Origin: a virus
Reading direction: 5' to 3' (one strand)
Length of the DNA: 39,265 bases
Virus record (IMG/VR): IMGVR_UViG_3300010885_005358
Coordinates: 1 to 39,265 of that record
Below, piece after piece: positions 25,939-39,265 of the stretch. Position 1 is the stretch's first letter. Every line of letters starts with the position of its first letter. Below the pieces are notes generated by a model. The model worked only from the letters and a program-made list of their open reading frames with translations, did no database searches and was not told the DNA's origin. The position numbers and the translations under genes were made by a program.

Positions 25939-25950
25939 CACAATTGAAAA
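25939..25950 (+). repeat. Leader box CACAATTGAAAA, copy 1
   Basis: First of three exact 12-mers (others at 26302 and 26997, variant at 27658), 11 nt before the start codon of the gene at 25962. Confidence 0.7.
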
Positions 25951-25961
25951 GGTAAAACAAA

Positions 25962-26237
25962 ATGAGAGTTATTGAAAAACAAATGTTAGCTGCAATTACT
26001 AATCTAAAATATTTTAGTAACAGTAATACTATGGTTAAAACATACAATGGTTATTGCGATATTTACTTGCATGGCCACCATATCGCAGAATATGACAATT
26101 TCACCAATAAAGTTAAAGTTAATGTAGATACTTTGCGTAATTGGCCTACTAACACCACCAAATCACGGTTACGCGCTCTTGGTGTAAATGTTACTACCAA
26201 AAAAGGTATTACATACTTGGATAATGTAGCAGTATAA
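25962..26237 (+). CDS. First early gene, conserved phage protein of unknown function
   Basis: 91 residues. The central pattern YNGYCDIYLHGHHIAEYDNF, then LRNWPTNTTKSRLRALGVNV, is one I recognise from small early proteins of many podoviruses and siphoviruses (a beta hairpin with HGxxIA, then TTRSRLxALG). Function is unknown. A DNA- or RNA-binding role is possible because of the basic TTKSRLR stretch. It follows the leader box at 25939 and AAAAGG. Confidence 0.7.
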   Translation: MRVIEKQMLAAITNLKYFSNSNTMVKTYNGYCDIYLHGHHIAEYDNFTNKVKVNVDTLRNWPTNTTKSRLRALGVNVTTKKGITYLDNVAV

Positions 26238-26250
26238 CTAAATTTATCTG

Positions 26251-26276
26251 TAAGGCCATGATAAAACGTGGCTTTA
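26251..26276 (+). other. 10-bp leader hairpin upstream of the gene at 26327
   Basis: TAAGGCCATG (26251-26260) pairs with CGTGGCTTTA (26267-26276) around a 6-nt loop, with two G-T pairs. There is no T-run after it, so it does not look like a standard terminator. It precedes leader box copy 2. Confidence 0.6.
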
Positions 26277-26301
26277 CGGGCTAATTTTGGCCAATACACA
26301 G

Positions 26302-26313
26302 CACAATTGAAAA
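26302..26313 (+). repeat. Leader box CACAATTGAAAA, copy 2
   Basis: Exact 12-mer, 13 nt before the start codon at 26327. Confidence 0.7.
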
Positions 26314-26326
26314 GCGAGAATACACT

Positions 26327-26554
26327 ATGAAAAACATATCACAGCACAAGGGCATTTTAGAGATTATTAGACGTGAGAATAATAGCGTAAATGGCAATCC
26401 GCGCTACTTCCTAAGAATTGACGGGTTTAAATGTTATACATCTCCCGATTCTATGACAGCCTATGCTGTTACCAATTATGACGGGAAACAAGTACACGCA
26501 ACAATTGGCACATATTACGGTAAACCTACATTACATGGAATCTGGAGCGTATAA
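26327..26554 (+). CDS. Small conserved early phage protein
   Basis: 75 residues. It contains IIRRENNSVNGNPRYFLRID, then YAVTNYDGKQVHATIGTYYG. The NGNPRY and Y-x-V-x-N-x-x-GK-x-V pattern recurs in small early phage proteins. It looks all-beta. Function unknown. Confidence 0.68.
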   Translation: MKNISQHKGILEIIRRENNSVNGNPRYFLRIDGFKCYTSPDSMTAYAVTNYDGKQVHATIGTYYGKPTLHGIWSV

Positions 26555-26555
26555 C

Positions 26556-26789
26556 ATGAATAATTACACTATAAGAGGGTTTCATTATTCTGAATTATCA
26601 GAAAAGGCCAAGACTAAAGTTAAAAACTGGCTAGATGAAATTCCATTTGATTACGAAGATGAAGCTGGCATTACGCATTATGAATATGCGAGTGATTGGA
26701 ACGATGGAGAAATAAACGAGCATTGCAGAATGAATGGGTATATTTTCAATCTTGACGGCAATTATATCCATCACTTAATAGAGGATTAA
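26556..26789 (+). CDS. Small early protein of the ELSEKAK family
   Basis: 77 residues from the ATG at 26556, 1 bp after the previous stop, with GGAGCG upstream. An in-frame ATG inside the previous gene is less likely. It starts MNNYTIRGFHYSELSEKAKT and has DEIPFDYEDEAGITHYEY. The Y-x-ELSEKAKxKxxxW motif is widespread in phage early proteins of unknown role. This copy is shorter than most. Confidence 0.7.
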   Translation: MNNYTIRGFHYSELSEKAKTKVKNWLDEIPFDYEDEAGITHYEYASDWNDGEINEHCRMNGYIFNLDGNYIHHLIED

Positions 26790-26791
26790 TC

Positions 26792-26926
26792 ATGTATAAA
26801 ATAGAAAATAAACGTTACGGGTATTTAAAGTATTTTGATACTTTATTATCCGCATATTGCGAATTAAGCTTTTTAAAACGCAATCATTTAATTCAACAAA
26901 ATAGCATTATTAAATCTGTGCATTAA
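26792..26926 (+). CDS. Tiny early protein
   Basis: 44 residues, with AGGA 6-8 nt before the ATG and a 2-bp gap after the previous gene. It is basic (pI high by eye) and aromatic-rich near the start (YKIENKRYGYLKYFDTLLSA). No family recognised. Confidence 0.55.
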   Translation: MYKIENKRYGYLKYFDTLLSAYCELSFLKRNHLIQQNSIIKSVH

Positions 26927-26944
26927 AAACATAAAACATTCTAT

Positions 26945-26986
26945 AAGCCTATTCTAACCAGTAGGCTTGTGGGCTTGTTTTAAGCC
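26945..26986 (+). other. Two adjacent leader hairpins upstream of the gene at 27025
   Basis: AAGCCTA (26945-26951) pairs perfectly with TAGGCTT (26962-26968). GGCTT (26972-26976) pairs with AAGCC (26982-26986). The shared AAGCC/GGCTT words also allow alternative pairings between the two, as in attenuators. Confidence 0.6.
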
Positions 26987-26996
26987 GATATTATTA

Positions 26997-27008
26997 CACA
27001 ATTGAAAA
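26997..27008 (+). repeat. Leader box CACAATTGAAAA, copy 3
   Basis: Exact 12-mer, 16 nt before the start codon at 27025, followed by a GAGGAG ribosome site. Confidence 0.7.
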
Positions 27009-27024
27009 TTGAGGAGTTATTAAA

Positions 27025-27261
27025 ATGAATACTTACGCAGGAATGACAAACAATTTAACTATTGATGATGTACTAACCAATTTTGAATTGTTTTTAATGA
27101 AACAATTTGGCGCAAATTGCATAGATGTTACCAATAGTTTAATTCATTCTAAAGTAGATGTTTTATTGAATGATGATTTGAATTATTGGTCATTTTGTCC
27201 AGTTTGGACTTTATACGATAGCGCAAAGCAGCAATTAATTAATGAAGGCAAATTATCATGA
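27025..27261 (+). CDS. Small early protein, unknown function
   Basis: 78 residues with a strong GAGGAG site. It is mildly acidic and helical, for example NLTIDDVLTNFELFLMKQFG and VWTLYDSAKQQLINEG. No family recognised. Its stop overlaps the next start (ATGA). Confidence 0.62.
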   Translation: MNTYAGMTNNLTIDDVLTNFELFLMKQFGANCIDVTNSLIHSKVDVLLNDDLNYWSFCPVWTLYDSAKQQLINEGKLS

Positions 27262-27356
27262 AAGATTTTGATATGTTTACTTATATGTGCTTGGCAATTG
27301 ATACAATTTTAATTGCTACTTTTATAATTGTTATATTTCATTTTAAAGGTATTTAA
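27258..27356 (+). CDS. Tiny single-pass membrane protein
   Basis: 32 residues, starting in the stop of the previous gene (ATGA). Residues about 9-28 are a hydrophobic segment (CLAIDTILIATFIIVIFHF). Probably a small inner-membrane protein acting early. Function unknown. Confidence 0.55.
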   Translation: MKDFDMFTYMCLAIDTILIATFIIVIFHFKGI

Positions 27357-27358
27357 TC

Positions 27359-27526
27359 ATGGATAATAAATATATCAGTAAATACGCTAAACACGATACA
27401 CATTTTTTACGTGTTAGCAATCCAAACTATTATTTTGAAGAAGAGCCGAAGACAGCTGCTAAAGTGTTTTATTCAGTGTGCTTTATCCTATGCTTAATAG
27501 GTTTATTGTTTTTAGCTACTATGTAA
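27359..27526 (+). CDS. Small membrane-anchored protein
   Basis: 55 residues with AAAGG upstream. The N-terminal 32 residues are polar, and the C-terminus (about 33-54) is a hydrophobic anchor (FYSVCFILCLIGLLFLATM). Looks like a tail-anchored early membrane protein. Confidence 0.57.
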   Translation: MDNKYISKYAKHDTHFLRVSNPNYYFEEEPKTAAKVFYSVCFILCLIGLLFLATM

Positions 27527-27539
27527 TTAAATTGGTTAG

Positions 27540-27567
27540 TAAATAATGGTGTGACAGCCATTATTTA
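27540..27567 (+). other. 10-bp perfect leader hairpin
   Basis: TAAATAATGG (27540-27549) and CCATTATTTA (27558-27567) are exact inverted repeats with an 8-nt loop. A second, nested stem (GCCA/TGGC with AGCG/CGCT, 27609-27637) lies between this and the leader box variant at 27658. Confidence 0.6.
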
Positions 27568-27657
27568 TTGCCAGTCAATAGCAGTATATTAGATTTATAT
27601 TTAAACGTGCCACAGCGTCTTAAAATGCGCTTAATGGCCAATTATTAGTAATTCAAA

Positions 27658-27669
27658 CCAATTGAAAGG
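27658..27669 (+). repeat. Leader box variant CCAATTGAAAGG, copy 4
   Basis: Shares AATTGAAA with the three exact copies and lies 8 nt before the start codon at 27678. Here the AAGG may itself be the ribosome site. Confidence 0.5.
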
Positions 27670-27677
27670 TAATTATT

Positions 27678-27896
27678 ATGCAAGTTAAAAAAAATATTGA
27701 GATTGGAGATACTTTTCTATCCAATGGTAAGCATAAAAGACTTTGCACTGTTAGCGATATATACAAAACCTATAATGCCAAAAATGAATTAGTCAAAACT
27801 TCTTATGTGGCTTTTCATTTATTCAATGGCCAATTGGTCAATGAGTATGATATTTGCAAAGTAACAATTCAACGTGGCTTAATAGGGAGCATATAA
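27678..27896 (+). CDS. Small early protein, unknown function
   Basis: 72 residues. It begins MQVKKNIEIGDTFLSNGKHK and seems beta-rich, with a basic start. It resembles in outline the protein at 28247 (NxGDxFxL/SNG against LNDRFILSDQ), so the two may be distant paralogues. Function unknown. Confidence 0.6.
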   Translation: MQVKKNIEIGDTFLSNGKHKRLCTVSDIYKTYNAKNELVKTSYVAFHLFNGQLVNEYDICKVTIQRGLIGSI

Positions 27897-27897
27897 A

Positions 27898-28083
27898 ATG
27901 ATTACTATTTTTTATGTATCTGGATATTCTAGCTGGTCAAATAAACAGCTTTTACGTGCATTTAAGACTATTGAAGAAGCTAATAATTTTAGTATTGGAT
28001 TAACTGCACCTAAAATTTATGGTATGCGTGGCAAATCAATAATTGAAGCTACAAATAAAATTTTAATGTCATTAGAGGAGTAA
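27898..28083 (+). CDS. Small early protein, unknown function
   Basis: 61 residues starting 1 bp after the previous stop. It contains ITIFYVSGYSSWSNKQLLRA and FKTIEEANNFSIGL. The YVxGYSSW pattern followed by a helix hints at a small alpha/beta fold. It is close in length and layout to the next gene, and the pair may be related. Confidence 0.58.
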   Translation: MITIFYVSGYSSWSNKQLLRAFKTIEEANNFSIGLTAPKIYGMRGKSIIEATNKILMSLEE

Positions 28084-28088
28084 TTATT

Positions 28089-28244
28089 ATGCAAAATTTA
28101 TATATAGTTTATGTTGGTGGCTTAGAAGTAAATGATTACTATTTAAGTAAAGAGAAGGCCATTGAATTATCAGATGAATATTTAGATGATGGATATGATG
28201 ATGTTGAAATAGTCAATATTGATGATATTGATGCAAAGGATTGA
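28089..28244 (+). CDS. Tiny acidic early protein
   Basis: 51 residues. It starts MQNLYIVYVGGLEVNDYYLS and ends in a very acidic stretch (DEYLDDGYDDVEIVNIDDID). The start (xxIxYVxG) resembles that of the previous protein. Such acidic small proteins can mimic DNA, but this is speculation. It has no strong ribosome site. Confidence 0.55.
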   Translation: MQNLYIVYVGGLEVNDYYLSKEKAIELSDEYLDDGYDDVEIVNIDDIDAKD

Positions 28245-28246
28245 TT

Positions 28247-28462
28247 ATGCTATTTAAAGATATTAAATTAAACGATAGGTTTATTTTATCTGACCAGGAT
28301 AACCCCACTCAAACATCTACTGGTAAGGTTTGGAATATTGTTTATTATCCGCAATCCAAAAACCATTTAACAATTGTACATTTTGATGACGGTTTAGGCT
28401 GTGCTGTTTATGGGGGCTTTAATGAGCCAATACATAATTTTATGAATTACTTAGGGGTTTAA
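28247..28462 (+). CDS. Small early protein, unknown function
   Basis: 71 residues from the ATG at 28247, with AAAGGA upstream. A TTG two codons earlier is less likely. It contains LFKDIKLNDRFILSDQDNPT, then KVWNIVYYPQSKNHLTIVHF and DDGLGCAVYGG. It looks like a small beta barrel. No family recognised. Confidence 0.6.
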   Translation: MLFKDIKLNDRFILSDQDNPTQTSTGKVWNIVYYPQSKNHLTIVHFDDGLGCAVYGGFNEPIHNFMNYLGV

Positions 28463-28463
28463 T

Positions 28464-28559
28464 ATGCTTATTGAACTAGCTGCAATCGTATTTTTATTTT
28501 GTATTATGGGTTGGTATGCTTTAATTCCAATATTTTTAATAATAGCACTTGCGGAATGA
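28464..28559 (+). CDS. Tiny membrane protein
   Basis: 31 residues, almost all hydrophobic (LAAIVFLFCIMGWYALIPIF, then LIIALAE). It starts 1 bp after the previous gene, with AGGGG upstream. It is probably an inner-membrane peptide, and the last gene before the non-coding stretch. Confidence 0.52.
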   Translation: MLIELAAIVFLFCIMGWYALIPIFLIIALAE

Positions 28560-28569
28560 TTTAATTTAA

Positions 28570-28740
28570 TTTAGTATAACCAAATAGCAAGGCGTGGAAA
28601 CCTTGCAACAATTCGCACGGTGCTGGTTATCCAGTAATTTAGTTATTAACGTGCGAGTTAATTATTAAGTTCCGAGCCGTGTAAATGTTAATTCCAAAGT
28701 TTACTAAAGCCTGTTACTTAACCGTGACGGGCTTTTTTTA
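28570..28740 (+). ncRNA. Candidate pseudoknotted RNA ending in a terminator
   Basis: ATAACCA (28576-28582) pairs with TGGTTAT (28624-28630) and encloses a GCAAGG/CCTTGC hairpin (28587-28606). TCGCACG (28613-28619), inside that loop, pairs with CGTGCGA (28650-28656) outside it, which is a pseudoknot layout. A competing CTGG/CCAG stem (28623-28634) and two CCGTG copies (28677 and 28722) that can pair with CACGG (28616-28620) suggest alternative folds. It ends at the terminator at 28706. I do not recognise a known RNA family. Confidence 0.5.
28706..28740 (+). terminator. Intrinsic terminator in the early non-coding region
   Basis: AAGCCTGT (28707-28714) pairs with ACGGGCTT (28727-28734, one G-T pair) and is followed by a T-run to 28739. 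It would end transcripts of the tiny early genes or of the candidate RNA. Confidence 0.8.
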
Positions 28741-29093
28741 TTGCCTGTATAGTTTAAGGTAATGCTGTTAAGCATAACTACGTAATGAAAAAAGGGGGAG
28801 TGTTGCCCGCTCCTAAGCATACCGTTGTTAAGATGGTGCTGATGTAAGAAGGTGCAGCCTAAGAACCAGTGCGGAATAGTGGCGTAAGCCTAAGCAGATA
28901 TTTATAAGGTTCGGTTGTAAGTGGAATAGAGCCGCGCTTAATGGGTTGTAGATATTACAATGTGTTAAGAACCTGATAAAACCCGACTTAACTGGAATAC
29001 TCACTTGTTTGTTAAGGTGCGTTACCACACACGGGCTAGGTTTAGACCTTAAAAACAAAATCAACCATGTAAGGCAAAAAAACGGAGTTTAGA

Positions 29094-29476: not shown

Positions 29477-29506
29477 TGTACATTTTCGTGAATACTCATG
29501 TACAAT
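29477..29506 (+). promoter_or_regulatory. Candidate promoter for the replication block
   Basis: TGTACA (29477-29482), 18 bp, TACAAT (29501-29506). A second TGTACA at 29499-29504 lies 22 bp from the first, so each promoter box carries one palindromic half-site. It precedes the SSB-like gene by about 60 bp. The spacing and the CTCATGTAC word match the site near 36051. Confidence 0.5.
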
Positions 29507-29567: not shown

Positions 29568-30143
29568 ATGGAATGGAAAAACAAAGATGGTGGTGGCACG
29601 TTTGAGAATCCTGAAGCTGGGACATATAATGCGGTTTGTTATCGTGTTATTGACATTGGTACACAGGAAAACAATTATCAAGGTGTTATCAGTCAAAAAC
29701 CTCAAGTGATTATTGCTTGGGAATTAGAGGAAACCATGAAAGATGGTAGGCCTTTCGTAGTATCTCAATTTTATACAGCCAGTTTAAATGAAAAGGCTAA
29801 ATTACGTCAGCACATGGCAACATGGCGCGGTCGTGATTTTACCGAAGCCGAATTACAGGGCTTTAATCCGTTTAACTTATTAGGTGCGCCTTGCATGCTA
29901 AGTATTAGCGTCAATGATAAAGGCCGTAGCAAAGTTACAGGTGTAGCTAAATTGCCTAAAGGATTACAGCCACGTAAGGCAGTTAATCCACAATGCTATT
30001 TATCTTTGGATAAAGAGAATTATGACCCTGCTATGTTTGATATGTTATCTGATGGTATTAAGGAGATTGTAAAAAAATCCCCTGAATATGCTTTGGTAAG
30101 CGGTCAGCAAGCTGTTTCTGTTGATGAAAATGACCCCTGGTAG
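29568..30143 (+). CDS. Probable phage single-stranded DNA-binding-like protein
   Basis: 191 residues with GGAG upstream. The pattern ENPEAGTYNAVCYRVIDIGT, then QKPQVIIAWELEE and FYTASLNEKAKLRQHMATWR, is known from a conserved phage family encoded next to recombination and replication genes. The later LLGAPCMLSISVNDKGRSKV part looks like an OB-type strand set. The protein ends SVDENDPW, an acidic tail with a terminal aromatic, like the tip of SSB and T7 gp2.5. This supports ssDNA binding and partner recruitment. An intrinsic terminator follows, so it may be made in excess over the helicase. Confidence 0.68.
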   Translation: MEWKNKDGGGTFENPEAGTYNAVCYRVIDIGTQENNYQGVISQKPQVIIAWELEETMKDGRPFVVSQFYTASLNEKAKLRQHMATWRGRDFTEAELQGFNPFNLLGAPCMLSISVNDKGRSKVTGVAKLPKGLQPRKAVNPQCYLSLDKENYDPAMFDMLSDGIKEIVKKSPEYALVSGQQAVSVDENDPW

Positions 30144-31695: not shown

Positions 31696-31919
31696 ATATC
31701 TTATTTGATGAAAATAATGAATGGTTTGGTATGCCACAATTTGAACAAGACAAAATTAAACCTTATAAAGAATTAATAGTTAGATTTGAATGTGAAAATG
31801 ATTATATTGATTTTCAATTATTACTTAATCAAAAAATGACCATTAAAACTAAAAGTATTTGGCATCCATATAAATCTCATTGGGGTTTAGAGAAAATGGT
31901 TTATAAAAATGAATCCTAA
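31692..31919 (+). CDS. Small partner protein of the glycosyltransferase (KTKSIWxP family)
   Basis: 75 residues, overlapping the helicase stop by 4 bp. It starts MNILFDENNEWFGMPQFEQD, and has KELIVRFECENDYIDFQLLL and MTIKTKSIWHPYK. The EWxGMPxFxQ ... IxVxFExxxDYxDF ... KTKSIWxP pattern is a small conserved phage domain, often found next to glycosyltransferase or ParB-type genes. Its function is not known. The 11-bp overlap with the next gene suggests they act together. Confidence 0.72.
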   Translation: MNILFDENNEWFGMPQFEQDKIKPYKELIVRFECENDYIDFQLLLNQKMTIKTKSIWHPYKSHWGLEKMVYKNES

Positions 31920-32775
31920 TTATCCAGTTTATATTGTTTCAAAAGGCAGACCAAATAATGGTTTAACAACTAGGGCATTGCATGAAATGGGCGTTTCACA
32001 TTATATTGTTGTAGAGGCTAAAGAATATGAATCTTATAAGGCTGGCAGATGTTTTGGTACTTTAATTATATTGCCTGATAGCTATAAAAATGATTATGAA
32101 TTATGTGATGAATTTGGATTAAGTAAATCAACTGGCCCTGGCCCTGCTCGTAACTTTTGTATTGACCATTCTGCATTGCTTGGATTTTCAAGACATTGGG
32201 TAATGGATGATAATATAGATGCTTTTCATTATTTAAACAAAAATGAGAAATTTGAAGTAAAAACAGGTTCAACATTAAGGGCTGCTGAAGATTTTGTTTG
32301 TAGATATTCAAATGTTCCAGTAGCAGGATTTAATTACTATTCGTTCTGCAAAAAAACAGATAAAGTGCCACCTTATATTTTAAATACTCGCATATATTCA
32401 TGCTTGCTAATTCAAAATGATGCTGGGTATCGTTGGAGAGGTAGGTATAACGAAGATACTGATTTATCTTTAAGAGTTTTAAAAGATGGATTATGTACTA
32501 TACAATTTAATGCCTTTTTATGTGGGAAAATAACAACTCAAAGAATGAGGGGGGGGAATAGTGAAGAGTTTTATGATGAAGAGGGGACATTACCAAAAAG
32601 TCAAATGCTAGAAAAATTGCACCCTGATGTTGCTAAAGTAGTTTGGAAATTTAATCGCTGGCATCATTATGTGGATTATCAACCATTCAAAATTAACAGG
32701 CTTATAAAAATTATTGATACCAGTAATATGGATAAAATAAATAATTACAGCATGGTTTTATGCAAGGATATATAA
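31909..32775 (+). CDS. TET-associated-type glycosyltransferase (TAGT-like)
   Basis: 288 residues. The start PVYIVSKGRPNNGLTTRALHEMG resembles GT-A fold enzymes. VVEAKEYESY and GPGPARNFCIDHS (76-88) lead to HWVMDDNIDAF with a DDNID acid cluster (100-104), the likely metal and nucleotide-sugar site. A second acid motif, NEDTDLSLRVL (181-191), follows. This order matches the family named TET/JBP-associated glycosyltransferase in phage genomes, where it adds sugars to hydroxylated bases. I see no TET/JBP hydroxylase, pyrimidine hydroxymethylase or cytosine methylase nearby, so the substrate is open. Overlapping genes tie it to the helicase-primase operon. Confidence 0.75.
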   Translation: MNPNYPVYIVSKGRPNNGLTTRALHEMGVSHYIVVEAKEYESYKAGRCFGTLIILPDSYKNDYELCDEFGLSKSTGPGPARNFCIDHSALLGFSRHWVMDDNIDAFHYLNKNEKFEVKTGSTLRAAEDFVCRYSNVPVAGFNYYSFCKKTDKVPPYILNTRIYSCLLIQNDAGYRWRGRYNEDTDLSLRVLKDGLCTIQFNAFLCGKITTQRMRGGNSEEFYDEEGTLPKSQMLEKLHPDVAKVVWKFNRWHHYVDYQPFKINRLIKIIDTSNMDKINNYSMVLCKDI

Positions 32776-38176: not shown

Positions 38177-39265
38177 TTGAAAAACCCTATTGATGTTGAA
38201 TTAAGAAGTTATGCAACGGTTAGGCAATTAGAATATTTAGATGCAATTGAAGAATGTGGTTCACAGCGTAAGGCAGCTAAGAAGTTAGGTATTGGTGCTA
38301 CCAGTATTGATAACGCTATCAATTCTTTAAAGAAGAAAGCAGCATTAGCTGGCTACTCACCTGAACATGACATGACCAGGACAGTACCTAGTCCTTTTGT
38401 CGTTAAAGGTATATCTACTTATTACAATGCTGAAGGTAAGCCTAGCGGTCAATGGGTTAAATCTCAAGTAGATGCGGATAAGCGTGAACAATTCATGCTA
38501 GAAGCCATAGAAGCATTAAAAGAAGACATCCCGAGAGTAACATTAATGTCACCACCACCAATGGGGAATGACAAGTTGCTTAACTGTTATGTTATAACCG
38601 ATTACCACATGGGTATGTTAGCATGGGATGAGGAGTGTGGTGAGAACTGGGATTTAAAGATAGCAGAAGAATTGATTATTAAATGGTTTGCACAAGCTAT
38701 TCACCAGTCACCTGATGCTGATACAGCGATATTTGCACAGCTATCTGACTTCTTACACTTTGATGGCATGGATGCAGTAACGCCAGCTAGTAAACACCTA
38801 TTAGATGTAGACAGTCGGTTCTCTAAGTTAGTTCGTGCTTCTATTAGAATATTGCGTAATGTAATAACAATGTTATTACAGAAGCATCAAAAGCTACACA
38901 TCATCATGGCAGATGCAAACCATGACCCAGTTAGTCAAATATGGTTACGTGAATGGTTTAGTGTGATGTATGAGAATGAACCTAGAGTAAGCGTAGATAC
39001 TAGCCCGAACCCTTACAATGCTTATGAATTTGGTAAAACTGCACTATTCTTTCATCATGGGCATAAACGCAATGTAGCTAATGTATCACATGTATTCGCT
39101 AGCCAGTTTAGAGAGATGTTTGGTAGAACTAAGTACGCTTATGCTCACATGGGGCATTTACACCACGTAGATGTTAAAGAGAATAACTTAATGATTGTTG
39201 AGCAACATAGAACACTAGCTGCCAATGATGCTTATGGTGCTAGAGGTGGTTATTTAAGCGGTAGA
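38177..39265 (+). CDS. HTH - calcineurin-like phosphoesterase (N-terminal part; continues at 1-190)
   Basis: The gene starts at a TTG (38177) with AAAGG upstream and runs off the window end in frame with bases 113-190, giving 388 residues. A stop codon lies in frame just upstream, and no earlier start exists. Residues about 12-50 form an HTH (RQLEYLDAIEECGSQRKAAK, then KLGIGATSIDNAINSL). The metallophosphatase part has TDYHMG (141-146), QLSDFLHFDG, ADANHDP (a GNHD variant), HHGHKR and AHMGHLHH, which supply the metal ligands. Such HTH-phosphoesterases occur in many podoviruses, often annotated only as hypothetical or oxidoreductase. The substrate is unknown. Confidence 0.87.
   Translation, partial: MKNPIDVELRSYATVRQLEYLDAIEECGSQRKAAKKLGIGATSIDNAINSLKKKAALAGYSPEHDMTRTVPSPFVVKGISTYYNAEGKPSGQWVKSQVDADKREQFMLEAIEALKEDIPRVTLMSPPPMGNDKLLNCYVITDYHMGMLAWDEECGENWDLKIAEELIIKWFAQAIHQSPDADTAIFAQLSDFLHFDGMDAVTPASKHLLDVDSRFSKLVRASIRILRNVITMLLQKHQKLHIIMADANHDPVSQIWLREWFSVMYENEPRVSVDTSPNPYNAYEFGKTALFFHHGHKRNVANVSHVFASQFREMFGRTKYAYAHMGHLHHVDVKENNLMIVEQHRTLAANDAYGARGGYLSGR
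39154..39265. repeat. Right copy of the 112-bp terminal direct repeat
   Basis: Identical to bases 1-112. Removing one copy gives a 39,153-bp circle with an unbroken phosphoesterase gene. Confidence 0.9.

Follow-up and report, generated by a model that had tools for sequence, protein, structure and literature searches.

A predicted folded RNA segment that ends in an intrinsic terminator between early genes of an uncultured virus

The early region of an uncultured virus (IMG/VR record IMGVR_UViG_3300010885_005358, all 39,265 bases of which form the window analysed here) has one single long non-coding gap, positions 28560-29093, with a 31-aa open reading frame (ORF) on its left and a DUF5710 ORF on its right. 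What is the RNA that would be made from the left part of this gap? A reading of the letters alone had proposed a new phage RNA at 28570-28740 that contains a pseudoknot, may act as a switch and ends in a terminator. Our analysis favours a simpler answer: with a probability of roughly 0.55, the segment is the structured 3' untranslated region (3' UTR) and terminator of an early cassette of small genes.

Genes around the segment

The first 120 bases of the record recur at 39145-39265. With this repeat at its two ends, the record probably represents a complete genome that is circularly permuted or terminally redundant. The structural genes are oriented leftward, starting at about 25 kb; the early genes are oriented rightward and extend from 25.9 kb to the end of the record, including all genes on either side of the RNA segment. 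Among the early rightward genes are those for an NGO0469-family protein, a DNA helicase, a TET-associated glycosyltransferase, a Toprim primase, NinG and a PD-(D/E)XK nuclease. The two features that border the segment are:

28464..28559, plus strand: small ORF, whose translation is a predicted hydrophobic or membrane peptide of 31 aa (MLIELAAIVFLFCIMGWYALIPIFLIIALAE)
28745..29093, plus strand: non-coding stretch of 349 nt before the DUF5710 ORF, with 13 TAAG words and three CTTA words

The peptide has no family match; the position of its ORF and an AGGGG 5' of the ATG suggest that it is a gene, the last one of the early cassette. The RNA segment begins immediately 3' of its stop codon at 28559 and holds no supported coding sequence.

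Further downstream, the ORF at 29568-30143 matches the NGO0469 family of "replication initiation" proteins (NCBIfam NF046043, 194 bits at a cutoff of 75). The relatives of this protein end in the tails DDDIPF, DLSDLPF or DDDVPF, and acidic tails of the DDDIPF type are typical for single-strand DNA-binding proteins. These tails suggest that the protein binds single-stranded DNA and is not an initiator. Its AlphaFold model (pLDDT 75) has long beta strands and finds no significant match in the PDB. The glycosyltransferase gene (31909-32775, Pfam PF20691) encodes a protein with up to 83% identity to proteins on many IMG/VR contigs; judging from this gene, the phage DNA may carry glycosylated modified bases.

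Terminator, fold and proposed pseudoknot

The features predicted in the segment are the following:

28587..28606, plus strand: hairpin 1, GCAAGG/CCUUGC (28587-28592 with 28601-28606), 8-nt loop; fold probability 0.42-0.82, varying with the assumed 5' end
28613..28656, plus strand: alternative pairing TCGCACG/CGTGCGA (state B, or a loop pairing)
28615..28682, plus strand: three-way junction in the MFE fold (state A), enclosing hairpins P3 and P4
28622..28635, plus strand: hairpin P3, GCUGG-UUAU-CCAGU; probability about 0.98
28636..28671, plus strand: hairpin P4, AU-rich, 14 bp with one U.U mismatch, loop GUGCGA (28651-28656); probability 0.56-0.83
28706..28739, plus strand: intrinsic terminator from pattern scan and fold, a 12-bp stem (28706-28735) with a U tract to 28739

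The terminator is the firmest part of the segment, and its prediction is convincing: a G+C-containing stem-loop is immediately followed by a U tract (TTTT), folding is far better than in shuffled sequences (z -6.15), and the pairing probability is 0.85-0.96 whichever fold is adopted upstream. The proposal that the RNA ends in an intrinsic terminator is thus well founded. By pattern scan, the surrounding 6-kb region has nine terminator-like sites versus 3.7 expected.

Upstream of the terminator, the predicted RNA forms hairpin 1 and then the three-way junction, an arrangement that differs from the one that had been drawn from the letters. The closing stem of the junction pairs GCACGGU with GCCGUGU (28615-28621/28676-28682). 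P4 overlaps an imperfect tandem repeat of 19 bp (28639-28676). The folding of this part is better than that of shuffled sequences: positions 28584-28742 have an MFE of -50.9 kcal/mol versus -32.9 in shuffles (z -5.0), and z is still -4.15 if the terminator is left out (28584-28700). None of 500 shuffles reached the z values of -4.1 to -5.0 that were obtained with boundaries chosen by hand. Since these boundaries were picked by eye, the fair comparison is the one with the whole genome: a 117-nt window at 28576 has a z of -4.08, and the 0.5 percentile of the 1566 plus-strand windows lies at -4.09; among 1958 windows of 120 nt taken from both strands, the region ranks no higher than 58th. The plus strand folds far better than the minus strand. 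The approximately 120 nt before the terminator are thus more structured than expected, though several other sites in the phage equal them. In the early region, z is below -4 in the plus-strand windows 26876-26992 and 27041-27160 as well, one of which surrounds an intergenic hairpin at 26940-26973.

The pseudoknot fared differently. All helices named in the sequence-only reading are present as letters at about the positions given: an outer stem (ATAACCA, 28576-28582, with TGGTTAT, 28624-28630), a word in its loop (TCGCACG, 28613-28619) that matches CGTGCGA outside it (28650-28656), and CACGG (28616-28620) with two CCGTG copies (28677-28681 and 28722-28726). The outer stem had been thought to enclose a 6-bp hairpin. 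The latter is our hairpin 1, but the stem itself has a probability of 0.0 in every transcript folded, and forcing it costs 9.4 kcal/mol (-42.8 versus -52.2) because TGGTTAT is part of hairpin P3 (CTGG-TTAT-CCAG). Moreover, an RNA starting near 28584 would omit the 5' half of the outer stem. Just two Watson-Crick helices with 7 bp or more are present in 28570-28740, whereas dinucleotide shuffles have 1.06 on average and two or more in 30% of the cases. A crossing pair of such helices arises in 9.6% of the shuffles and in 6% of the equal-size windows in the phage, and the pseudoknot as such is therefore not significant: the two crossing helices that an H-type pseudoknot needs are not both stable, and they do not exceed chance. 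As a general lesson, a pseudoknot of two 7-bp helices that is seen in a single sequence is found in about one in ten shuffles of like size and composition.

The other pairings that had been described as competing survive in part. The CTGG/CCAG hairpin forms, and CACGG pairs with the first CCGTG in the closing stem of the junction; the second CCGTG sits within the loop and the 3' arm of the terminator, and its pairing with CACGG has an ensemble probability of 0.0. The TCGCACG/CGTGCGA pairing uses the loop of P4 and stands as an alternative helix that competes with the GCACGG/CCGTGT closing stem, the probabilities being 0.14-0.37 and 0.42-0.77, respectively, depending on the 5' end; the former values come from pseudoknot-free folding programs and omit a coexistence with the hairpin at 28636-28671.

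A probable structured 3' UTR and its rivals

We suggest that RNA polymerase would transcribe the early cassette of rightward ORFs (about 25962-28559), pass through the 31-aa ORF and then transcribe some 145 nt that would fold as a hairpin and a three-way junction. Transcription would halt near 28739 at the intrinsic terminator, which would set the cassette apart from the replication cassette that follows (NGO0469-family protein, helicase, primase). By its fold, the 3' end would probably guard the message against decay from the 3' side, and processing may yield a short stable RNA from it. The transcript boundaries, the stability of the RNA and the absence of a dedicated regulatory role are parts of this reading that we infer. 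Terminator, above-average folding and lack of coding capacity are computational results, and so is the lack of a good promoter: a sigma-70-type scan, which weak or non-sigma70 promoters would escape, found no plus-strand promoter-like site of at least 9/12 between 27652 and 28724. A 3' UTR is the most economical explanation since the stop codon adjoins, a good sigma-70-type promoter and a coding sequence are absent, the RNA folds well, and a terminator ends it. On the other side, the folding exceeds what a plain 3' UTR needs, two near-equal folds use one and the same strand, and an independent start of transcription just upstream is possible.

The segment resembles the structured 3' UTRs, intrinsic terminators and small RNAs derived from 3' ends of phages and bacteria: it is non-coding, follows the last ORF, and has stem-loops and a G+C stem with a U tract. 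It differs from a bare terminator in being longer and, by prediction, better folded. If it is just a structured 3' end with a terminator, its role would hardly go beyond marking the border of two early transcripts. Only if the alternative folds were actually used would the segment be a new control RNA of the phage, placed at the switch into replication.

Phage-derived small RNAs are a recognised class (reviewed in PMC12197685), and the segment, with its approximately 155 nt, its structured body, its intergenic position and its intrinsic terminator, could be a trans-acting RNA of this kind that has its own promoter, acts by base pairing and has its 3' end at the terminator. We consider this doubtful: the sole promoter-like arrangement in place (TTGCGG, 17 nt, TAGTAT) scores 7/12, below the threshold of the scan, and the longest perfect complement elsewhere in the phage is AT-rich and has 11 nt.

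An attenuator or riboswitch that acts in cis, with alternative folds setting the read-through into the replication genes, is unlikely. The segment lies directly 5' of the replication cassette, it has mutually exclusive folds that both use GCACGG, and folds of transcript prefixes allow a transient pairing of hairpin 1 with the 5' arm of the terminator while the 3' arm has still to be made. But the gain from pairing this arm with upstream RNA (-2.9 to -4.5 kcal/mol) compares with about -3.2 kcal/mol in shuffles, and since 25-51% of the shuffles reach the same gain (51% for the antiterminator pairing), evidence for an antiterminator that competes beyond chance is absent. Moreover, the terminator forms irrespective of the upstream fold, and no Rfam riboswitch or leader was found above its cutoff. 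The idea of a terminator switch is thus unsupported. We would also give little chance to an orphan, lineage-specific regulatory RNA, i.e. a bistable three-way junction with the loop GUGCGA pairing with UCGCAC that, together with the UAAG-rich leader, controls the entry into the replication genes.

It is even less likely that the segment acts as DNA, as an operator cluster or replication origin, with the hairpins mirroring inverted or tandem DNA repeats. The 19-bp imperfect tandem repeat, the adjoining TAAG array, the adjacent replication genes and a change of the GC skew near 25-26 kb would agree with such an element, but plus-strand folding far exceeds that of the minus strand, no iteron-type array was found with TRF, and gene orientation explains the skew change. 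That the structure before the terminator is a chance by-product of composition is very improbable; the chance level of the pseudoknot and the rank among the 120-nt windows agree with it, whereas the position at about the 0.5 percentile of the 117-nt windows and two adjacent positions at z -4.1 argue against it. The weakest rival is an antitermination RNA that modifies RNA polymerase: the putL and putR RNAs of phage HK022, of about 70 nt and with two stem-loops each, are likewise folded RNAs in early transcripts (PMC9378689), but they come as two copies that are not joined to a terminator, whereas the segment is present once per genome, has a three-way junction unlike the put shape and is immediately followed by a strong terminator, which makes this reading highly unlikely.

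Relatives and the adjoining putative leader

The sequence-only reading had recognised no known riboswitch or small RNA here, and no known Rfam family (Rfam 15) matched in the window at the gathering threshold. Permissive thresholds gave matches at chance level, the best being the PyrR binding site (RF00515, 22.6 bits at a gathering score of 54) and VrrA (21.7 at 50 bits). The PyrR model resembles the segment in covering a hairpin, a long hairpin and a terminator-like 3' stem, but the alignment has mismatched pairs. DNA similarity searches against 50,697 phage and 72,556 plasmid records found only fragments of 21-31 nt with E values of 1 or worse. From IMG/VR, we gathered 30 loci via the helicase (44-59% identity), 39 via the terminase (two of them at 100%, with the region of interest outside their span) and 80 via the TAGT glycosyltransferase (up to 83% identity); neither the NGO0469-family protein nor the small ORFs upstream yielded any, and the terminase had no relatives in GTDB (one genome per species). 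In the loci fetched, blastn, nhmmer and a one-sequence covariance model of limited sensitivity found no credible match to the element. The near-identical relatives L032 and L033 stop short of the region, and the early region of L035, a relative with 82% identity in the terminase, is unrelated. DNA pattern scans with the pseudoknot plus CCGTG and with the junction plus its loop gave only matches that were rejected by the covariance model; those that were inspected letter by letter were all GC-rich. That homologues were not found in the phage, plasmid, IMG/VR and GTDB scans is not evidence against a function.

The stretch at 28745-29093, which lies outside what had been described before, is odder than the RNA segment itself, and it is likely the leader of the replication cassette. 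Its 13 TAAG words are the genome maximum for windows of this size and were reached by none of 1000 shuffles (mean 3.6), a result that carries less weight as the motif was picked after looking. It also has three GGAATA(G/C) words. Rfam has no match in this stretch, there is no overall excess of folding (z -0.45), and in the fold prediction the TAAG words are not preferentially unpaired. The arrangement recalls the operator of T4 gene 32, a pseudoknot followed by UUAAA/UAAA repeats that lies beside or overlaps the ribosome-binding site (PMC535899): here, UAAG-type words recur after a possible pseudoknot, 5' of the gene for a protein whose acidic tail resembles that of single-strand DNA-binding proteins. 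The differences are that a terminator intervenes, that the words are UAAG, and that they lie about 500-800 nt 5' of the gene with two ORFs in between. An autoregulation as in T4 gp32 was considered and rejected: it is unsupported because the array, which ends at 29073, stops about 500 nt before the NGO0469-family gene (start at 29568) and not beside its ribosome-binding site. Moreover, the array is absent from the relatives of the NGO0469-family protein.

Just 5' of the NGO0469-family gene, an inverted repeat (TGTACAT-N14-ATGTACA, 29477-29504) overlaps a promoter-like site and is a possible repressor operator. Finally, the word (CA)CAATTGAAA(A) is found on the plus strand at 25941, 26304, 26999 and 27659, about 15-25 nt 5' of the start codon in each of four small early ORFs, and it is almost absent from the rest of the genome. 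Its position suggests a translational or regulatory box common to the four ORFs; two of the copies are preceded by a hairpin (26247-26280 and 26940-26973).
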